Positions 14,646-64,000 of a stretch of DNA of 64,000 nt are shown in pieces (the stretch's first letter is position 1; the number at the start of each line of letters is the position of its first letter). The translations under genes were made by a program, and so were the position numbers. The stretch spans positions 62,001 through 126,000 of the forward strand of contig LNEV01000017.1 in NCBI GenBank assembly GCA_001464335.1, given 5' to 3'. A model generated the notes under the pieces. It did not search any database. It saw only the letters and a list, made by a program, of their open reading frames with translations, and was not told the DNA's origin. Source of the stretch: Rhizobiales bacterium Ga0077545 (GTDB lineage Bacteria; Pseudomonadota; Alphaproteobacteria; Rhizobiales; Methylopilaceae).

Positions 14646-15266
14646 GTGAACCTCACACCGCGTGAGAAAGACAAGCTGCTGATCGCCATGGCCGCCGAAG
14701 TCGCCCGCAAGCGCCTCGCACGCGGGGTCAGGCTCAACCACCCGGAGGCCGTCGCGCTCATCACCGATTTCGTGGTCGAAGGCGCGCGTGACGGAAAAAC
14801 CGTCTCCGAACTGATGGAGGCGGGCGCCCATGTCCTGACGACCGATCAGGTCATGGACGGCATTTCGGAAATGATCCACGACATCCAGGTCGAGGCCACG
14901 TTCCCGGACGGCACCAAGCTCGTCACCGTGCATCACCCGATCCGCGGCGCCGCATCGGAGGATGTGCCCGGCAAGGTAACCGCGTTGCCCGGAGACATCG
15001 TTTTCAACGAAGGGGCCGAACGCGTGACCGTGTCCGTCGCCAACACCGGCGACCGCCCGATCCAGATCGGCAGTCATTACCATTTCTTCGAGGCCAATCC
15101 GGGCCTTCAGTTCGACCGCGACAAGACACGCGGAATGCGCCTCGACATCGCGCCCGGCACCGCCGTGCGCTTCGAGCCGGGCGCGAGCCGCGATGTCACG
15201 CTCGTGCCGCTCGGCGGCAAACGGGAAGTCTACGGCTTCCGGCAGGCGATCATGGGAGAACTCTGA
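14646..15266 (+). CDS. ureAB: Urease gamma-beta fusion subunit UreAB
   Basis: One 206-residue chain holds both small urease subunits. Residues 1 to about 100 are the gamma subunit ([51 protein letters not shown]). From about residue 105 comes the beta subunit ([35 protein letters not shown], ending [12 protein letters not shown]). In many bacteria these are separate ureA and ureB genes; a fused form is known, for example in Helicobacter. The GTG start at 14646 has AGAAGGAC about 8 bases upstream. Its TGA overlaps the ATG of the next gene (TGATG). Confidence 0.95.
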
Positions 15267-15619
15267 TGCAGCAGATGCACTCCGGCGGCTGCCAGTGCGG
15301 CGCGGTGCGTTTTCAGGCGATCGCGGACACGGCCGAGAGCATTTCGTGCAATTGCTCGCGCTGCCGCAGACTGGGGCTTCTCCTCACCTTCACGCCGTCG
15401 TCCGCCTTCCGGCTGGAACAGGGCGAGGACAATCTGTCCGAATACAAGTTCAACAAGCATGTGATCTCGCATCTGTTCTGCAAGACCTGCGGCGTGCAGA
15501 GCTTTGCGCGCGGCGTCGGGCCGGACGGCTCGGAGATGATCGCGATCAATGCCCGCTGTCTTGACGGCGTCGATGCCGACACGATCAACCCGAAGAAATT
15601 CAACGGCGCCGCCGTCTGA
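15266..15619 (+). CDS. GFA-domain (CENP-V fold) zinc protein inside the urease operon
   Basis: The 117-residue protein has the seven cysteines of the glutathione-dependent formaldehyde-activating (GFA/CENP-V) fold: C9 and C11 in GGCQCGAV, C28, C30 and C33 in CNCSRC, and C72 and C75 in FCKTCG, enough for the usual two zinc sites. Family members include S-hydroxymethylglutathione synthase-like proteins, but many have no proven reaction, and this short form lacks support for a specific substrate. It is not a standard urease accessory gene. It overlaps ureAB by TGATG and is followed 13 bases later by ureC, so it is clearly part of the operon. Confidence 0.88.
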
Positions 15620-15632
15620 GGAAAAGCTCCCG

Positions 15633-17351
15633 ATGTCGAAACCTTCTTCCCTTCCCCGCCAGGCCTATGCCGACATGTTCGGCCCGACCGTCGGCGACAA
15701 GGTGCGTCTCGCAGACACCTCGCTCGTGATCGAGATCGAGAAGGATTACACGACCTACGGCGAGGAGGTGAAATTCGGCGGCGGCAAGGTCATCCGCGAC
15801 GGCATGGGCCAGAGCCAGGTAACGAACGCCGAAGGCGCCGTCGACACCGTCATTACGAACGCGGTCGTCCTCGACCATTGGGGCGTGGTCAAGGGCGATG
15901 TCGGCATCAAGGGCGGGCGCATCCTCAAGATCGGCAAGGCGGGCAACCCCGATGTGCAGCCGGATGTCGACATCGTGGTCGGCCCGGGCACCGAGGTCAT
16001 CGCGGGCGAAGGCAAGATCCTGACGGCGGGCGGATTCGACACGCACATCCATTTCATCTGCCCGCAGCAGATCGAGGAGGCGCTGATGTCCGGCATCACC
16101 TCCATGCTCGGCGGCGGCACCGGCCCCGCAACGGGCACCTTCGCGACGACCTGCACCCCCGGCCCCTGGCATCTGGCGCGGATGATCGAGGCCGCGGACA
16201 GCTTCCCGATGAATCTCGGCTTTGCGGGCAAGGGCAACGCGTCCCTGCCGGGCGCGCTCATCGAAATGGTGCTCGGCGGCGCCTGCGCGCTGAAACTCCA
16301 CGAGGACTGGGGCACGACGCCGGCCGCCATCGACTGCTGCCTGTCGGTTGCGGACGAGCACGACGTTCAGGTGATGATCCACACCGACACGCTGAACGAA
16401 TCGGGCTTCGTGGAAGACACGATCGCCGCCTTCAAGGGCCGCACGATCCACGCCTTCCACACCGAGGGCGCGGGCGGCGGCCATGCGCCGGACATCATGA
16501 AGGTGGCGGGGCTCGACAATGTCCTGCCCTCCTCCACGAACCCGACGCGCCCCTTCACGAAGAACACGCTGGATGAGCATCTCGACATGCTGATGGTCTG
16601 CCATCATCTGTCGCCGTCCATACCGGAGGATCTTGCCTTCGCTGAAAGCCGCATTCGCAAGGAGACGATTGCGGCGGAGGACATCCTCCACGATCTCGGC
16701 GCGCTGTCGATGATGTCGTCCGACAGCCAGGCCATGGGCCGCGTCGGCGAGGTCATCATCCGCACCTGGCAGACCGCCTGCAAGATGAAGCAGCAGCGCG
16801 GACGCCTGGCCGAGGAGACCGGCGACAACGACAACATGCGCGTGCGCCGCTACATCGCCAAATACACGATCAACCCCGCCATCGCGCACGGCGTCTCGCG
16901 CCACATCGGCTCGATCGAGCCGGGCAAGTTGGCCGATCTCGTGCTCTGGACGCCCGCGTTCTTCGGCGTGAAGCCCGATCTCATCATCAAGGGAGGCGCC
17001 ATTGCGGCCGCCCCGATGGGCGATCCCAACGCCTCGATCCCGACGCCGCAGCCTGTCCATTACCGCCCGATGTTCGGCTCGTATGGACGCGCCGTTCAGT
17101 CGACCTCCCTCACCTTCGTCTCGAAATCCGCACTCGAAAACGGACTTCGCGACAAGCTCGGATCGCTGAAGGAATTCGTCGCGGTCGAGAATGTCCGCGC
17201 GGGCATCGGCAAGAAAAGCATGGTGCTGAACGACGCGACACCCGTCATCGAAATCGATCCCGAAACCTACGATGTGCGCGCCGACGGCCAGCTTCTCGTC
17301 TGCGAACCGGCCGAGAAACTTCCGATGGCACAGCGCTATTTCATGTTCTGA
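15633..17351 (+). CDS. ureC: Urease catalytic alpha subunit UreC
   Basis: The 572-residue protein hydrolyses urea to ammonia and carbamate in the cytoplasm. All nickel and catalytic residues are present: H138 and H140 (DTHIHF), the carbamylated lysine K221 (KLHEDWG), H250, H276 (HAFHTEG), the flap C323-H324 (MVCHHL) and D364 (SSDSQAMG). These stand four positions after the well-known Klebsiella numbering, which also supports the start. The ATG at 15633 has GAGGAAAAG upstream; the frame runs further back into the GFA gene but that extension is not urease-like. The stop overlaps the DUF6314 start (TGATG). Confidence 0.97.
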
Positions 17352-17800
17352 TGGACACTCTGTTTTCGCGTCTCGAAGGCCGCTGGAAGATCGCCCGCAC
17401 CATCGATCCTGAGGGATCGCTTGCGGGCATGGCCGAGTTCGTGCGCCGGCCGGATGGCTGGCTGCATTACCGCGAGGCCGGCGAACTCGTCCTTCCGCAT
17501 GGGCGTTTTCAGGCCGACCGGCGCTACCGGTTCGAACCGATGTCGGACGGTTTCGCCGTGTTCTTCGACGCCGATCCGCTCCGCCTCTTTCACCGCATCC
17601 GGCTCGAGGAGATCGCGGACGGCAGGTTGCGCGGCGAGGCCGAGCATCCGTGCGGCCGCGACACCTATCTCACCACCTATATATTCCACCCGGACGGCGA
17701 ATTCTCCGTGCGCCACCGCGTGAGCGGCCCCAACAAGGACTACACGGTCCAAACGCTCTATAAACGGGCGAACAACCCTTCAAAGGAGATCGCGGCATGA
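17351..17800 (+). CDS. DUF6314 family protein between ureC and ureE
   Basis: The 149-residue protein has the DUF6314 pattern: an N-terminal LEGRWKIARTI, a central YRFEPMSDGFAVFF and DPLRLFHRI, and a C-terminal HPCGRDTYLTTYIF followed by FSVRHRVSGPNKDY. It looks like a small lipocalin-like beta barrel without signal peptide or metal motif. No function is known. Its ATG overlaps the ureC TGA (TGATG) and its TGA overlaps the ureE ATG (ATGA), so it is tightly coupled to urease assembly genes, which makes a role in urease or ammonia handling possible but unproven. Confidence 0.85.
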   Translation: MDTLFSRLEGRWKIARTIDPEGSLAGMAEFVRRPDGWLHYREAGELVLPHGRFQADRRYRFEPMSDGFAVFFDADPLRLFHRIRLEEIADGRLRGEAEHPCGRDTYLTTYIFHPDGEFSVRHRVSGPNKDYTVQTLYKRANNPSKEIAA

Positions 17801-18396
17801 CCCGCGCCACCACAATCGTCCGCAAGCTCGCCGTGAAGGCCGACAAGGTCGCCGACACGATCACGCTCGACCATCAGGACCGCCACCGCCGCCGCATCGC
17901 CCTGAAGGCCGATGGCGGGCTCGATTTCCTGCTCGACCTCGACAAAGCGAGCGTTCTGGAAGACGGGGATGCCGTGAAGCTCGAGGACGGACGCCTCGTG
18001 AAGATCGTCGCCAAGCCCGAAGAGCTGATCGAGATCACCGCCGAGAACCCGCTGCGCCTGATGAAGCTCGCCTGGCACCTCGGCAACCGCCACACGCCCG
18101 CCGAGGTGACGAAGGAGGCGATCTACATCGCCCCCGATCACGTCCTGGTCGAAATGGTGCGCGGCCTCGGCGCCAAGGCGGAAAAGGTCTCGCGCCCCTT
18201 CCGTCCCGAACAGGGCGCCTATCACGAGCATGGCGGGCACGATCACGAAGGCCACGATCACGGGCATGACGCCCATGAGCATCACACTCACGCCGAGCAC
18301 GAACACGGCCACAAGCACGGCCACGACCATGCCGAGGGCGAGCACCATCACGCGCACGGCGAAAGCTGCGGCTGCGGGCATGATCACAAGCACTAG
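17797..18396 (+). CDS. ureE: Urease accessory protein UreE with long His-rich tail
   Basis: The 199-residue protein is the nickel chaperone that supplies UreG/UreD/UreF. An N-terminal UreE domain ([16 protein letters not shown]) is followed by the metal-binding C-terminal domain ([32 protein letters not shown]). The final 57 residues hold about 24 histidines plus a CGCGH motif, giving a large nickel- or zinc-storing tail. The ATG overlaps the DUF6314 stop (ATGA), and the tail-coding end overlaps ureF by 17 bases. Confidence 0.95.
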
Positions 18397-19057
18397 CAGC
18401 ACCCTGCCGCTCTTCGCGTGGCTGTCGCCCGGCTTTCCGGTCGGCGCCTATGCCTATTCGCACGGCCTCGAATGGGCCGTGGAAGACGGCGATGTGCGCG
18501 ACGCGGAAACCCTCCTCGCATGGCTCCGCGACACGCTGGAGCACGGCGCGGGCCGCAACGACGCGATCCTGCTGGCCCATGCGTATCGTGCGTTGGAGGA
18601 CCAATCGGCGCTGCGGGACGTGAACGAACTCGCACTAGCCCTTGCTCCGTCTCAGGAATTGCGGCTTGAGACGGCGCAGCAGGGCCGCAGCTTCCTGGAT
18701 GCCGTACTTGCAGCATGGCCACAGGAAAAACTGACGAAAGCCGCCGACAACATTGGAGAGATCGCCTATCCCGTCGCGCTCGGCCTCGCCGCCGCGGCCC
18801 ATACAATCTCCCTGAAAGACACCCTGCCCGCTTTTTTGCTCGCCTTCGCGCAAAATCTCGTCTCGGCCGCCATACGCTCCGCCCCCATCGGCCAGACGGC
18901 CGGAATGCGTGTCGTGACGGCGCTGACGCCGCTTGTGCAGCACATTGCGCGCGAAGCCGAAACGCTCACGCTCGACGATGTCGGCGGCTGCACCTTCCGT
19001 GCCGATCTCGGCTCGTTTCGTCATGAAACCCAATATACGAGGCTGTTCAGATCATGA
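18380..19057 (+). CDS. ureF: Urease accessory protein UreF
   Basis: The 225-residue helical protein bridges UreD and UreG in the nickel-insertion complex. Family features are [19 protein letters not shown] near the N terminus and [20 protein letters not shown] in the C-terminal half. The ATG at 18380 lies within the end of ureE in another frame; the frame is open for 50 more codons upstream but those encode the shadow of the His-rich tail. The UreF stop overlaps the ureG ATG (ATGA). Confidence 0.94.
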
Positions 19058-19677
19058 GTAACAACGGTCCCCTGCGCGTCGGCATCGGCGGCCCGGTCGG
19101 CTCCGGCAAGACGGCTTTGATGGAAGCGCTCTGCAAGAGGCTGCGCGGCACCTACGATCTGTGCGCCATCACCAACGACATCTACACCAAGGAAGACGCA
19201 CGCCTGCTTACCGTCGCGGACGCCCTTCCCGTCGAGCGCATCATGGGCGTGGAAACGGGAGGCTGTCCGCACACCGCGATCCGCGAGGATGCGTCGATCA
19301 ATCTGGCGGCCATCGCCGACATGAACCGGAAATTCCCCAACCTCGACCTGATCCTGATCGAGAGCGGCGGCGACAACCTTGCCGCCACCTTCTCGCCGGA
19401 GCTTGCCGACATCACGATCTACGTCATCGACGTGGCGGGCGGCGAGAAGATCCCGCGCAAGGGCGGTCCCGGCATCACGCGCTCGGACCTTCTCGTCGTC
19501 AACAAGATCGACCTTGCGCCGTTTGTCGGCGCCGACCTGTCGATCATGGAAGCCGACACGAAGAGGATGCGCGGCGAGCGCCCCTACGTGTTCTCCAACA
19601 TCCGCGGCGGCATCGGAACGGAAGATGTGGCGGACTTCATCATCCGGGCGGGTGGGTTGCCCGCCCGAGCGGCCTGA
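19054..19677 (+). CDS. ureG: Urease accessory GTPase UreG
   Basis: The 207-residue GTPase powers nickel delivery to urease. It has the P-loop [11 protein letters not shown] at about residues 12-22, the metal-binding [13 protein letters not shown] (invariant Cys-Pro-His), [15 protein letters not shown] and the guanine-specificity NKIDLAP. Length and order are standard. Its ATG overlaps ureF. It is the last recognised urease gene; no nickel permease gene is found nearby. Confidence 0.97.
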
Positions 19678-20065: not shown

Positions 20066-22369
20066 ATGTCTGCACCGCCTCAGAAATGGGCTTTTCGCCA
20101 GCGCGCACGAACGCTTCCCCTGAAGCAGTTCGTCCGCATCTGCACGGGAGTAACCTGCGCGGGCCTGGTGATGCTTGCCATCATTCTTCTGTGGCAGGAA
20201 CGCGAGCGGGCGCTCTCCACGGCCGAGGGGACCGCGACAAATCTCGTCGGTATGCTGTCCCAACACACCGAGCGCACGATCGATTCCGTCGATATGCTGC
20301 TGAAGATCACGGCCCGTGAGCTGGGGCCGCGTGCGAGCGATCAGGTCAAGCGATCCAACCTTCTCGCCAACCTGTCCCAACTGACCAAGGATCTGCCGCA
20401 CGTCATGGCAATCCGCCTGCTCGACCCCTATTCGAAAGAACCCCTGTTCGAGTTTTACCGCTCGAAGCCCGTCGGGCGGACGGCCGATAAGGAAGCGCTG
20501 TTCGAGCATGGCGAGAACCGGTATCGCGGCCAGTTCATCGGACGGCCCTATTTCGACGACAGCGGACAAAGCTGGGTCACGGGCATCAGCCGCCGCATCA
20601 GCGGACAAGAGGGGGTTCCGGGGCGTGTCGTCATCGCCATCGTGAACCTCGATTACCTCAACAATTTTCACCGTTCGATCGATATGGGCGAAAGCGGTGC
20701 GATCAACGTCGTGCGTACCGATGGCGTCATCGTCACGCGGCGTCCCTTCGATCCGAGCTTTATGGGCCGGGACATTTCGAAGCCGCTCAACGAGGCTGTA
20801 CAAGGGCGCACAAGCGGCACCTACAGGATGGTCGCCGCCACCGACAATATCGCCCGTGTCTATGCGTTCCGCGAACTGTCGCGCATGCCGCTCATCGTCA
20901 TTGCGGGCATTTCCAAGAACTCGGTTCTGGCCTTGTGGGCCGCCGAAGCCACACGCAGCATGGTCATCACCTGCATCGCCGTGCTGATCCTTCTCGTCGC
21001 CGGGGAAATGCTGGCGCGCGCAGCCGGCCAGCGCGACCGCTTGGAAGAGCACATGCGTCACGCGGCGAGCCACGATGCGCTGACTGGGCTCGCCAACCGA
21101 TCCGAATTTCAGGTGTGCCTCGACACGCTCCTTGCGGAACAGCCGGACATAAAACTCTGTCTTCTGCTCATCGACATCGATGAGTTCAAAACGATCAACG
21201 ACACCTTGGGCCACGATGCCGGGGACACACTTCTGCAAGAGGCGGCCACACGCCTTCGCCATCTCGGCGCCGTTCACGTCGCGCGCTTCGGCGGCGATGA
21301 ATTTGCCCTGACGGTCAAAGGCCCCCTGTCAGAAGGCATCCGTGTCGCCGGCATCATTCTGGACGAGCTGCGCCGCCCGTTCGCCTATCTCGGAAAAACC
21401 ATGCTGACCGCCGCGAGCGTCGGCATCACGACCTCACCCGAACACGGCACGACGACGAGCGAGCTTTTGAAGAGCGCCGACATTGCCCTCTACGCGGCGA
21501 AATTCGCGGGCCGCAACCGCTATGCGGTGTTTGAGAACGGCATGCGCGCCGAAATTCTCGCGCGCACGGCTCTGCACGAAGATGTGCGCGAGGCGCTTCG
21601 GCACGACCAGTTCGTGCCCCATTATCAGCCTCAGATCTGCGTCATGACGGGCAAGGTTCTCGGCTTCGAGGCTCTGGCACGCTGGGTCCACCCGCAGCGC
21701 GGCCTCCTGACACCGTCGGTGTTCGGATCGGCGTTCGAGCATCACGAGCTTTCCATGGACATCAGCCGTGCGCTCCGCCGCAAGATCCTCGCGGACATGC
21801 AGGCCTGGCACGAAATGGGGCTGGCGTTCGGACGCATCGCGTTCAACGCATCGGCAGCCGAGCTCGAACATCCTGACTTTGCGGCTGAAGTCCTCGACGA
21901 GATGAAGGTCGCGGGCATCCACACCAGCATGATCGAAATCGAGGTCACCGAGGGCGTCTTGTTCGGCCGCACGGAAGATCGGGTCCATTCGAATCTTCTT
22001 CAGCTCCACGGAGCGGGCGTACGTATCGCGCTCGACGATTTCGGAACCGGCTATGCCTCGCTGACCCATCTGAAAAAGTTTCCGATGGACGTGCTCAAGA
22101 TCGACCGGAGTTTCGTGCAGAACGTCGAAAACAGCCCGGCGGACGCCAGCATTGTCACGGCCGTGATCAACATGGCGCATGGGCTGGGCTTTTCGGTCGT
22201 CGCGGAGGGTGTGGAAAGTCAGTACCACCTGGCCTTCCTGCGCCGCGCCGGATGCACGACCGCACAGGGCTTCCTGTTCGCAAGGCCCATGGTGGGAAGC
22301 CGCGTGCCCGGCTACCTCCGAAATCTGGAGCAGCCGCCGATCGGCAGGACAGGCAATGCCCGTGCTTGA
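20066..22369 (+). CDS. Membrane-bound GGDEF-EAL protein with periplasmic sensor domain
   Basis: The 767-residue protein has one membrane segment near residues 26-43, a periplasmic Cache/PDC-like sensor of about 250 residues (with [14 protein letters not shown] and [11 protein letters not shown]), a second membrane segment near 298-315, then GGDEF and EAL domains. GGDEF is intact (FGGDEFAL, about residue 408) but the RxxD inhibitory site is absent. EAL is intact in its key motifs (GFEALARW at about 532, [20 protein letters not shown]). It may make or break cyclic di-GMP, or both, under periplasmic control. Its last 14 bases overlap the start of a Bug-type binding protein, an unusual pairing. 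Confidence 0.92.
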
Positions 22370-23363
22370 GAGACGAGGCGTTCTTGCGGGCCTTGCCGCC
22401 TTCATCGCGTCGGCGCGGATGGGCGCGAAGGCGGCTTCCGCGCAATCATGGCAGCCCAGCCGTCCGGTGCGCATCGTCGTGCCGTTCGCGGCGGGTGGTC
22501 CGACCGACACGGTCGCCCGCATCCTTGCAGACGGAATGACCCCTTATCTGGGCCAACCGGTCTATATCGACAATATCGGTGGCGAAGGCGGACAGGCCGG
22601 TGTTCTAAAATTCCTGAACGAAGCCGCGGATGGCCATGTGCTTCTGATGGGGCATATGGGTACGCACGGCGCCGCACCGGCCCTGAACGGCAATCTCGGC
22701 TACGATCCCGTAACCGATTTCGAACCCATCGGGCTCGGGGCCGGCACACCGGTCGTGATCTGCGCGAGCAAGGCGCTCGATGTCCGCGACATGGCCGCAC
22801 TCCGCACATATCTCGCATCACGCGCACGCGACATCAGAATGGCGCATGCCGGACGCGGATCGGTCTCGCACGCCGGTGCACTTCTCCTGAACCATACGCT
22901 CAAGGCCCAACCCACACTCGTCGGCTATGAGGGTACGGGGCCAGCGCTCAACGATCTCATTTCCGGCGACATCGCATTGATGGTCGACCAGATCGTCAAT
23001 GTCGCCCCCGCCATCATGTCCCGGAGAATTGTTCCTCTCGCCATTACAACGCAGAAGCATTCGCTGTTGCTCCCGGGGGTTCCAAGCGTCGCGGAACTTG
23101 GGCTCGACGCGCTGCGCATGGATGCCTGGAATGGCCTGTTCGCCAAGGCCGGAACATCGTCGGAGCAGATCGAGACCCTGAACAGCGCCTTGCGCGCGGC
23201 ACATCGCAGCTCGGCCACGCGTGCAAGGCTGATGGATCTTGGAGCCGTGGTGCCGGACGACGAGGAGAGCAGTCCGCCCGCCCTCCTCGAACGCGTCAGG
23301 GACGAGACGAGGCGCTGGTCGGCAACGCTGTACGAACTACGAAACGATCAAGCCTTGCGGTGA
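22356..23363 (+). CDS. Bug/TctC-type solute-binding protein, overlapping the GGDEF-EAL gene
   Basis: The 335-residue protein has an RR-containing export signal ([17 protein letters not shown], cleavage near ASAQ) and the Bug fold of tripartite tricarboxylate transporter receptors: [32 protein letters not shown], then [18 protein letters not shown]. Such periplasmic proteins bind carboxylates and similar small molecules. No TctA/TctB permease is present nearby. The ATG at 22356 lies inside the preceding GGDEF-EAL gene (14-base overlap), suggesting co-translation and a sensory rather than transport role; that is inference. Confidence 0.88.
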
Positions 23364-23626
23364 ACGAGGCGGGCGCAGTTCGCCGCCGCGCGCCCGATCT
23401 TGCGTGCTTCGGCCTCCGACAGGCGACCGCTCTGGACGCGCGGCTCCACGACAGCGCGCACCGCGTTCTCGAGCGTCGCGCCACGCTGCACCTGAGCGAC
23501 CACGCCGCGATAGACGACCTTGGTCTGGCCATCGAGCTTGGCGGCGCAGGCATCCGCATCCGCCTTGTCGGCAAGTGCCGCGCCCGGAGCAATCAGCAGG
23601 GCGGCAGCGATGAGATAACGAAGCAT
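23348..23626 (-). CDS. Small secreted hypothetical protein, 92 aa
   Basis: The product has a signal peptide (LRYLIAAALLIAPGAALA) and about 72 mature residues with two cysteines (DACAAK and ANCARLV), probably forming a disulphide in the periplasm. LENAVRAVVEPRVQSGRLS is the central helical part. No known family was recognised. The ATG at 23626 has GGAGAG about 7 bases upstream. The gene converges with the Bug gene, whose end it overlaps by 16 bases. Confidence 0.75.
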   Translation of the reverse strand: MLRYLIAAALLIAPGAALADKADADACAAKLDGQTKVVYRGVVAQVQRGATLENAVRAVVEPRVQSGRLSEAEARKIGRAAANCARLVHRKA

Positions 23627-23762
23627 GGTTGCACTCTCCGGCAATGATAATCGGCCCGGTTGCTGGAGGATATTTAAGTCAATTTTGCGTCGCGGAAATG
23701 GGTCAGCCTGCGGGCTGCGGCGCAAAAGGGCGTGAACACCGGGTCTTGACCCTCGGCCTCTC

Positions 23763-62529: not shown

Positions 62530-64000
62530 TCAGGCGGTGCCTGCCTGCCCCCTCATGCCGTCAGCGCGCAGCAGCGCCGGAACGTCCTGTGCGGGCACGG
62601 GCCGGCCGAAATGAAAGCCCTGCGCATAGGTGCAGCCCATTTCGGCAAGCAGCCGCGCCGTCTCCGCGTCCTCCACCCCTTCCGCCGTCGCCGGCAGGTC
62701 GAGATTGCGGGCCATGGCCATGATGGCCGCAACCAGAGTGTTTTCGCTGCCGCCGGCCGACAGCGCCGTGATGAAGGAGCGGTCGATCTTGATCTTGTCG
62801 AACCTCAGTTCGTGGAGGTTCTGCATGTTCGAATAGCCGGTGCCGAAATCGTCGAGCGCAACCGTCATGCCGAAGGAGCGGAAGGCCTGCATGACCGATT
62901 GCGCACCTGCAAAATCCTTGATCAGCGCATCCTCCGTAATCTCGATCTCGATGCGCACCGGCGCCAGCCCGCAATCGATCGCCGTGCTCGCGATCAGGGT
63001 TGGCAGAAGCGGATTGCCGAGCTGGCTGGGCGACAGATTGACCGACAATGTCAGATCCTTCGGCCAGTTTCGCGCCTGTCGGGAGGCCTCGGCCACAAGA
63101 TGGCGCGTCATCATCTCGGTCAGCCCAGCCTCGTCCGCGATCTGGATGAAGCGTTCGGGTGTCAGCACGCCGCGCGACGGGTGGTTCCACCGGGCAAGGA
63201 TTTCGAAGCCGACAATACGTCCGGTCTTTAGCTCGATGAAGGGCTGGAAGTACGGCACGATCTCGCCGGCCCGAATCCCGGTTCGCAGTTCTGCTTCCAA
63301 GGTCGCGCGCTGCTGGATTTCTTCGCCCATACTCCGGTCGAAACGGCAGAAGCTGCCACGCTGGATGCGCTTGGCTGCATACATGGCCAGATCCGCAGCC
63401 CGCAGGAGCTCCGAGCGGTTCGACGCGTCCGTCATCGCAAAGGCGATGCCGACCGTCGCGCCGATGTCGATCTGGCCTGCGGGCAACAGGAACGGCGCCG
63501 ACAGGCAATCGATCACCTGCTGTGCAATGTCCTCCGCGCGCTCGGGATCGTCCGCACACGAGACAAGAATGGCGAATTCGTCGCCGCCGAGGCGCGCCAC
63601 AAGTTCGCCTCGGCGCACCAGAGCGTTCAGCCGCGCGGCCGCCTCCTTCAGCACCATGTCTCCGACAGGGTGCCCCAGAAGGTCGTTGACGGGCTTGAAC
63701 TTGTCGAGATCGAGAATGAGCAGGGCCACATGCTCGACGGCGCCGTCGTGAAACACCTCCTTCAGGCGCTCGTTGAGCATGCGCCGGTTGGCGATGCCGG
63801 TCAGTTCGTCGAGACTTGCAAGATCGGCGAGCTGCCGGTTCGCATTGCGAAGCCGCCGGTTCTGCTCGACGATCAATTGCTCCTTGCGCTCAAGAAGTTC
63901 GGCGGTTTTGTTCAGGGTATTTGCAAGCTCGTCGAAATCCGCTGGCAGCGTGTACGTATCGATGCGATAGCGGTAATCGGCACCGGCCAGCGCCGAGGCC
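62530..64000 (-). CDS. HAMP-GGDEF-EAL protein, N terminus cut by window edge
   Basis: At least 490 residues are visible; the frame runs on past the right edge, so the start seen at 63876 is internal. Reading from the edge, a HAMP-like linker (YRYRIDTYTLPADFDELAN) and a coiled stretch precede a GGDEF domain (LGGDEFAIL; the inhibitory site reads RRGE, not RxxD) and an EAL domain (GFEILARW, DDFGTGYSNM, KIDRSFI) with EIL in place of EAL but the key Glu kept. The missing part should hold a membrane sensor. It probably sets cyclic di-GMP level. Confidence 0.92.
   Translation of the reverse strand, partial: ASALAGADYRYRIDTYTLPADFDELANTLNKTAELLERKEQLIVEQNRRLRNANRQLADLASLDELTGIANRRMLNERLKEVFHDGAVEHVALLILDLDKFKPVNDLLGHPVGDMVLKEAAARLNALVRRGELVARLGGDEFAILVSCADDPERAEDIAQQVIDCLSAPFLLPAGQIDIGATVGIAFAMTDASNRSELLRAADLAMYAAKRIQRGSFCRFDRSMGEEIQQRATLEAELRTGIRAGEIVPYFQPFIELKTGRIVGFEILARWNHPSRGVLTPERFIQIADEAGLTEMMTRHLVAEASRQARNWPKDLTLSVNLSPSQLGNPLLPTLIASTAIDCGLAPVRIEIEITEDALIKDFAGAQSVMQAFRSFGMTVALDDFGTGYSNMQNLHELRFDKIKIDRSFITALSAGGSENTLVAAIMAMARNLDLPATAEGVEDAETARLLAEMGCTYAQGFHFGRPVPAQDVPALLRADGMRGQAGTA

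Follow-up and report, generated by a model that had tools for sequence, protein, structure and literature searches.

A Bug/TctC solute-binding protein gene overlapping a GGDEF-EAL receptor gene: a candidate ligand-presenting unit for cyclic di-GMP signalling

The locus and the encoded proteins

The window, the whole stretch of 64,000 nucleotides analysed from Rhizobiales bacterium Ga0077545, contains two overlapping genes on the forward strand, encoding a GGDEF-EAL membrane protein and a Bug/TctC solute-binding protein (Table 1). The start codon of the Bug gene, an ATG at 22356, lies 14 bases inside the GGDEF-EAL gene, exactly as proposed in the sequence-only reading. With overlaps of 14, 4, 4 and 0 nt in four species, translational coupling of both genes is plausible. 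Since a promoter scan of the locus did not reveal any consensus promoter, co-transcription of the pair is deduced from the gene spacing only. The RNA-family scan of the locus gave no match. A small exported-looking protein of 93 aa, lacking a Pfam match, is encoded convergently with the Bug gene (23348-23629, minus strand), and its gene adjoins the pair in a second species (G002, see below) as well.

Table 1. Position of the features of the gene pair in the window.
Feature	Position	Strand	Evidence
GGDEF-EAL membrane protein (receptor/enzyme), 767 aa	20066..22369	+	Sequence, Pfam, orthologues
First membrane segment, residues 21-45	20126..20200	+	Hydropathy, same in 4/4 species
Periplasmic dCache sensor domain, residues 46-291	20201..20938	+	PF22588, AlphaFold2 model, Foldseek
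Second membrane segment, residues 292-322	20939..21031	+	Hydropathy
GGDEF domain, intact GGDEF motif (409-413)	21065..21520	+	PF00990
EAL domain	21578..22288	+	PF00563
Overlap of the GGDEF-EAL and Bug genes, 14 nt	22356..22369	+	Sequence
Bug/TctC solute-binding protein, 335 aa, MatC-like	22356..23363	+	PF03401, 6hke match, tree
Predicted export signal, Tat-like (12 protein letters not shown)	22356..22445	+	N-terminus by inspection
Ser171 codon of the Bug gene, equivalent to BugD Ser151	22866..22868	+	Alignment with 6hke; PMC8556258

The Pfam matches of the 767-aa protein were EAL (3.8e-69), GGDEF (1.2e-34) and dCache_1_like (PF22588, 1.8e-12). The periplasmic domain is enclosed by two hydrophobic segments with equivalents in all four orthologues, according to hydropathy. 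An AlphaFold2 model of residues 18-328, built from three sequences (pLDDT 81.5, pTM 0.73), showed two PAS-like lobes on a long helix, that is, a two-lobed Cache domain. The periplasmic Cache/PDC-like domain between two membrane segments, previously suggested from the sequence, was confirmed. In Foldseek, the model matched 3lif best among PDB structures, a periplasmic domain from a putative diguanylate cyclase or kinase, and most of the matches after it were other dCache domains; 3lif was also the sole sequence-level PDB match of the sensor. The receptor therefore has two transmembrane segments, a periplasmic domain, GGDEF and EAL, as in the NspS-MbaA type.

The GGDEF motif is invariant in the four species, and the RxxD inhibitory site is absent from the GGDEF domain, by inspection. 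The EAL metal and catalytic residues E535, N594, D657/D658, K678, E714 and Q734 are kept and are likewise invariant. Because both sets of residues are intact and invariant, the enzyme may be able to make as well as break cyclic di-GMP. A second EAL-domain gene is located near the end of the window (62599-63294, minus strand; contig C17:124599-125294).

The sole Pfam match of the 335-aa protein was TctC (PF03401, 4.1e-33, 115.5 bits against a cut-off of 27), which spans nearly the whole mature protein; no match to the PotD-like polyamine family was obtained. The ligand-loop motif P-F-x-A-G-G-x-x-D of TTT binding proteins (PMC8556258) is present as PFAAGGPTD at residues 43-51. By inspection, each of the four orthologous N-termini looks like an export signal, with Tat-like features in the window genome and G003 and Sec-like features in G001 and G002, in line with the earlier claim of an exported protein. 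It is the only Bug protein encoded on contig C17. Its closest solved relative is MatC (PDB 6hke, E 3.2e-73). Ser171 aligns with Ser151 of BugD, a residue that contacts C4 ligands in BugD/MatC (PMC8556258), and is Ser in three of the four species and Thr in G003. The protein thus shows both the clade membership (see below) and the C4-contact serine of a MatC-like C4-dicarboxylate binder. To judge from these sequence features, its ligand is probably a small carboxylate, most likely of the C4-dicarboxylate class, for example malate or succinate.

Conservation and distribution of the pair

The window genome (G000) was compared with three other species of the same genus (G001, G002 and G003). The pair was found in all three, with the orthologues side by side and the proteins of the four species 45-66% identical (receptor orthologues of G001-G003, 48-57%). 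The binding-protein gene is adjacent and usually overlapping, again as in the NspS-MbaA type: besides the 14-nt overlap of the window, the genes share four bases (ATGA) in both G001 and G002 and directly abut in G003.

The pair is kept in genomic surroundings of three kinds. The urease operon adjoins it in the window and G002. In G001 an OmpA-family gene is found upstream and genes for DPBB, PBP5-like carboxypeptidase and thymidylate kinase downstream, and in G003 the pair stands between an opp-type ABC operon and a region with phn genes and a gene for a hexapeptide-repeat protein. When the window is compared with G002, the pair is 58% identical and the flanking genes 64-94%, most of them above 80%. 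The pair is thus much more diverged than most of its neighbours, as can be expected for sensory proteins that change specificity. The urease cluster of the window (14646-19677) includes an apparent fused UreA-UreB of 206 aa, and ureC is flanked by a GFA-family gene (15266-15619) and a DUF6314 gene (17351-17800).

An accidental or hitchhiking adjacency of functionally unrelated genes was considered in view of these data. The window genome has 22 TctC, 17 EAL and 18 TctA matches, so that a chance EAL-Bug neighbour in one genome would not be extraordinary; about 0.06 same-strand Bug-EAL neighbours are expected by chance (an estimate from 22 Bug and 17 EAL genes, with ~3,200 genes assumed), and the confinement of the pair to one genus, described below, also fits an accident. 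However, four diverged species share the pair, its junction is tight in each of them and the genes around it have changed, so the adjacency goes beyond chance and an accidental origin is considered highly improbable.

Outside the genus, a sensor-profile search was carried out over ~1,090 genomes of the order, class and phylum. Scores were 533-581 bits inside the genus and did not exceed 172 bits in the other genomes, indicating that the pair's sensor makes up a strongly diverged subfamily of its own, found only with a Bug gene. At 79 of the better non-genus sensor loci, a few of which end at contig ends, no abutting Bug gene was detected (0/79). A second, weak sensor match in G001 (1642827) has no Bug gene nearby. 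A contig scan for the pair returned only two members of the genus, Hyphomicrobiales bacterium isolate bin.53 and Rhizobiaceae bacterium CPCC 101076, and in a Bug-profile search over the class no GGDEF-EAL partner was seen beside the closest relatives of the pair's Bug protein. Among 112 Bug loci with 1.5-kb flanks, one besides the pair had a GGDEF/EAL-like neighbour.

Other loci with Bug genes in some proximity were as follows. At locus L131 (genome G255) a Bug gene lies ~1 kb downstream of a sensor homologue; it was rejected and not counted as a pair, as an ORF for a GntR-type-like regulator stands between and the Bug gene sits in an apparent metabolic cluster. At L235 and L240 the distance is ~4 kb. 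The single case besides the pair among the 112 Bug loci is L203 (G001 C1:2037999 region), where a Bug gene with TctA next to it has a weak GGDEF/EAL-like neighbour (E 8.6e-18).

As far as seen within the genomes searched, the pair is a genus-level invention, and independent Bug-GGDEF pairs with unrelated sensors may exist, for example in the Bug-rich Burkholderiales. The sequence-only reading had proposed conservation across genera as a check and had taken a restriction to one close clade as evidence against its proposal. The adjacency held in four of four species and three neighbourhoods, and no such pair was found in other genera among the genomes searched; this counts in part against the proposal, although the proteins of the four species are only 45-66% identical.

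The same distribution bears on how the receptor could receive its signal. dCache folds usually bind small molecules themselves, and the structures that match the sensor best belong to the dCache class, in which direct binding of amino acids or carboxylates is frequent; this is a counterpoint to any docking of a binding protein. The signal might accordingly be bound by the dCache domain itself, with the Bug protein as an accessory that scavenges or buffers the same ligand without docking, and the non-genus sensor homologues do without a Bug neighbour. Nevertheless, the pair's sensor forms its own diverged subfamily that occurs only with the Bug gene, and we regard direct sensing as improbable compared with presentation of the ligand by the Bug protein.

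Permease linkage and origin of the Bug protein

The absence of TctAB genes near the pair, already remarked on in the sequence-only reading, extends to the whole 165-kb contig of the pair in this genome, on which TctA gave no match. TctA is also absent from the pair's contig in G003, and the nearest copies are 229 kb away in G001 and 80 kb away in G002. Across the four genomes, 59 of 71 Bug genes are within 5 kb of a TctA gene, and none of the four Bug genes of the pair is. The linked tctA/tctB genes that characterize TTT binding proteins, without being obligatory, are accordingly missing.

In a tree of 106 Bug proteins, those of the pair were monophyletic (support 1.0) and fell within a small clade (support 0.79) that also holds MatC, a malate-binding protein from Rhodopseudomonas palustris. 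TctA adjoins five of the six nearest non-genus Bug relatives examined. Because its kin are mostly TctA-linked and it shares a clade with MatC, the Bug protein of the pair appears to be a C4-dicarboxylate-type transporter subunit taken over by a cyclic di-GMP receptor; in the simplest history, such a subunit parted from its permease and came to be linked with the receptor.

Alternatively, the protein could still be a transporter subunit for a distant TctAB, in an operon with the GGDEF-EAL gene only for co-expression. One of the 18 TctA genes of the genome is 60-64% identical to the TctA adjoining MatC-like relatives, and orphan Bug proteins, common in other bacteria, may share permeases (PMC5812351). 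Most TctA genes in these genomes, however, already have their own Bug gene nearby, and the coupling to the GGDEF-EAL gene outlasted the change of flanking genes, and hence we consider continued service to a distant permease unlikely.

A second permease-less Bug gene is kept in all four genomes (G000 C16:123612, G001 C1:479291, G002 C4:65564 and G003 C38:60190; loci L274-L277). In each, it is adjoined by a gene of ~640 codons, which is thiC in the two scanned. It was rejected as a further receptor partner as it adjoins thiC and not a receptor gene; a thiamine-related role for this orphan is possible.

Proposed mechanism and relation to known systems

Conservation of the pair in four of four species and three neighbourhoods, the lack of TctA genes beside it in each of these species, and the precedent of NspS-MbaA support a functional link. 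We consider it likely that the two genes encode one sensory unit in which the binding protein presents its ligand to the receptor. The ligand-presenting model of the sequence-only reading is thereby strengthened with regard to the link itself, and weakened in that the pair is known from one genus only.

According to the proposed mechanism, the Bug protein, derived from a MatC-type subunit, would be exported to the periplasm, where it would bind a small carboxylate of the malate or succinate type and close. The closed form would dock on the GGDEF-EAL protein made together with it, at the periplasmic dCache domain, and docking would shift the balance between synthesis and breakdown of cyclic di-GMP, so that nutrient supply could act on the choice between motile and sessile life. 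Co-translation, docking, ligand class and the direction of the enzymatic response are parts of this scheme that we infer.

In NspS-MbaA, a two-TM GGDEF-EAL receptor is under the control of a binding protein whose gene overlaps that of the receptor by 3-16 bp (PMC9993111). The systems of Vibrio cholerae and Sinorhizobium meliloti resemble the pair in this overlap of the binding-protein gene with a two-TM receptor gene carrying GGDEF and EAL, and by analogy of architecture the pair may work like them. They differ in that NspS is PotD-like and binds polyamines, whereas the binding protein of the pair belongs to Bug/TctC, and in that the binding-protein gene is upstream of the receptor gene in NspS-MbaA and downstream in the pair.

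In BctC-BctE of Bordetella pertussis, a liganded citrate-binding TctC protein activates a sensor kinase via contact with its periplasmic domain (PMC9602780, PMC5812351). Both systems partner a TctC-family protein with a membrane sensor, the contact being a proposal for the pair. The output of BctC-BctE is a two-component phosphorelay, whereas that of the pair would be cyclic di-GMP; moreover, BctC belongs to a complete BctCBA transporter, unlike the Bug protein of the pair, which has no linked permease. The pair thus combines the receptor type of NspS-MbaA with the binding-protein family of BctC-BctE.

In Salmonella, STM1987, a dCache_1 cyclic di-GMP enzyme, needs the periplasmic arginine-binding protein ArtI for sensing (PMC8846402). 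ArtI belongs to a different binding-protein family from the Bug protein. The genes for ArtI and STM1987 are not known as a coupled pair, nor is STM1987 known to contain an EAL domain. MatC (RPA3494 of Rhodopseudomonas palustris), which shares with the pair's Bug protein the clade and the Ser at the C4-carboxylate contact, is a TTT transporter binding protein according to the title of its paper, in contrast to the permease-less protein described here.

Searches of the open literature did not turn up any Bug/TctC protein described as the partner of a diguanylate cyclase or other GGDEF or c-di-GMP protein, an absence that is not proof. In a term search, a 2022 review of sensory input to cyclic di-GMP (PMC8846402) mentioned neither tricarboxylate-family nor Bug proteins, and in a 2022 survey the TctC example has the sensor kinase BctE as partner (PMC9602780). 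The design had been put forward as undescribed; this applies to the Bug/TctC version only, as NspS-MbaA already provides an example of ligand presentation to a GGDEF-EAL enzyme by a binding protein. On balance, we favour the view that a TTT binding protein permanently off its permease is here the ligand-sensing half of the first Bug/TctC-dependent GGDEF-EAL system, which possibly senses C4 dicarboxylates.

Bug/TctC proteins normally deliver small organic acids to a membrane pump. Some genomes encode tens to more than 100 of them, often with no permease to match, and the function of these orphans is a standing question (PMC2864759, PMC5812351). If the proposal is true, the pair gives a concrete answer for at least one of them, namely signalling instead of transport: the Bug protein probably tells the enzyme which nutrient is outside the cell, and the TctC family would join the few binding proteins that supply input to cyclic di-GMP networks.
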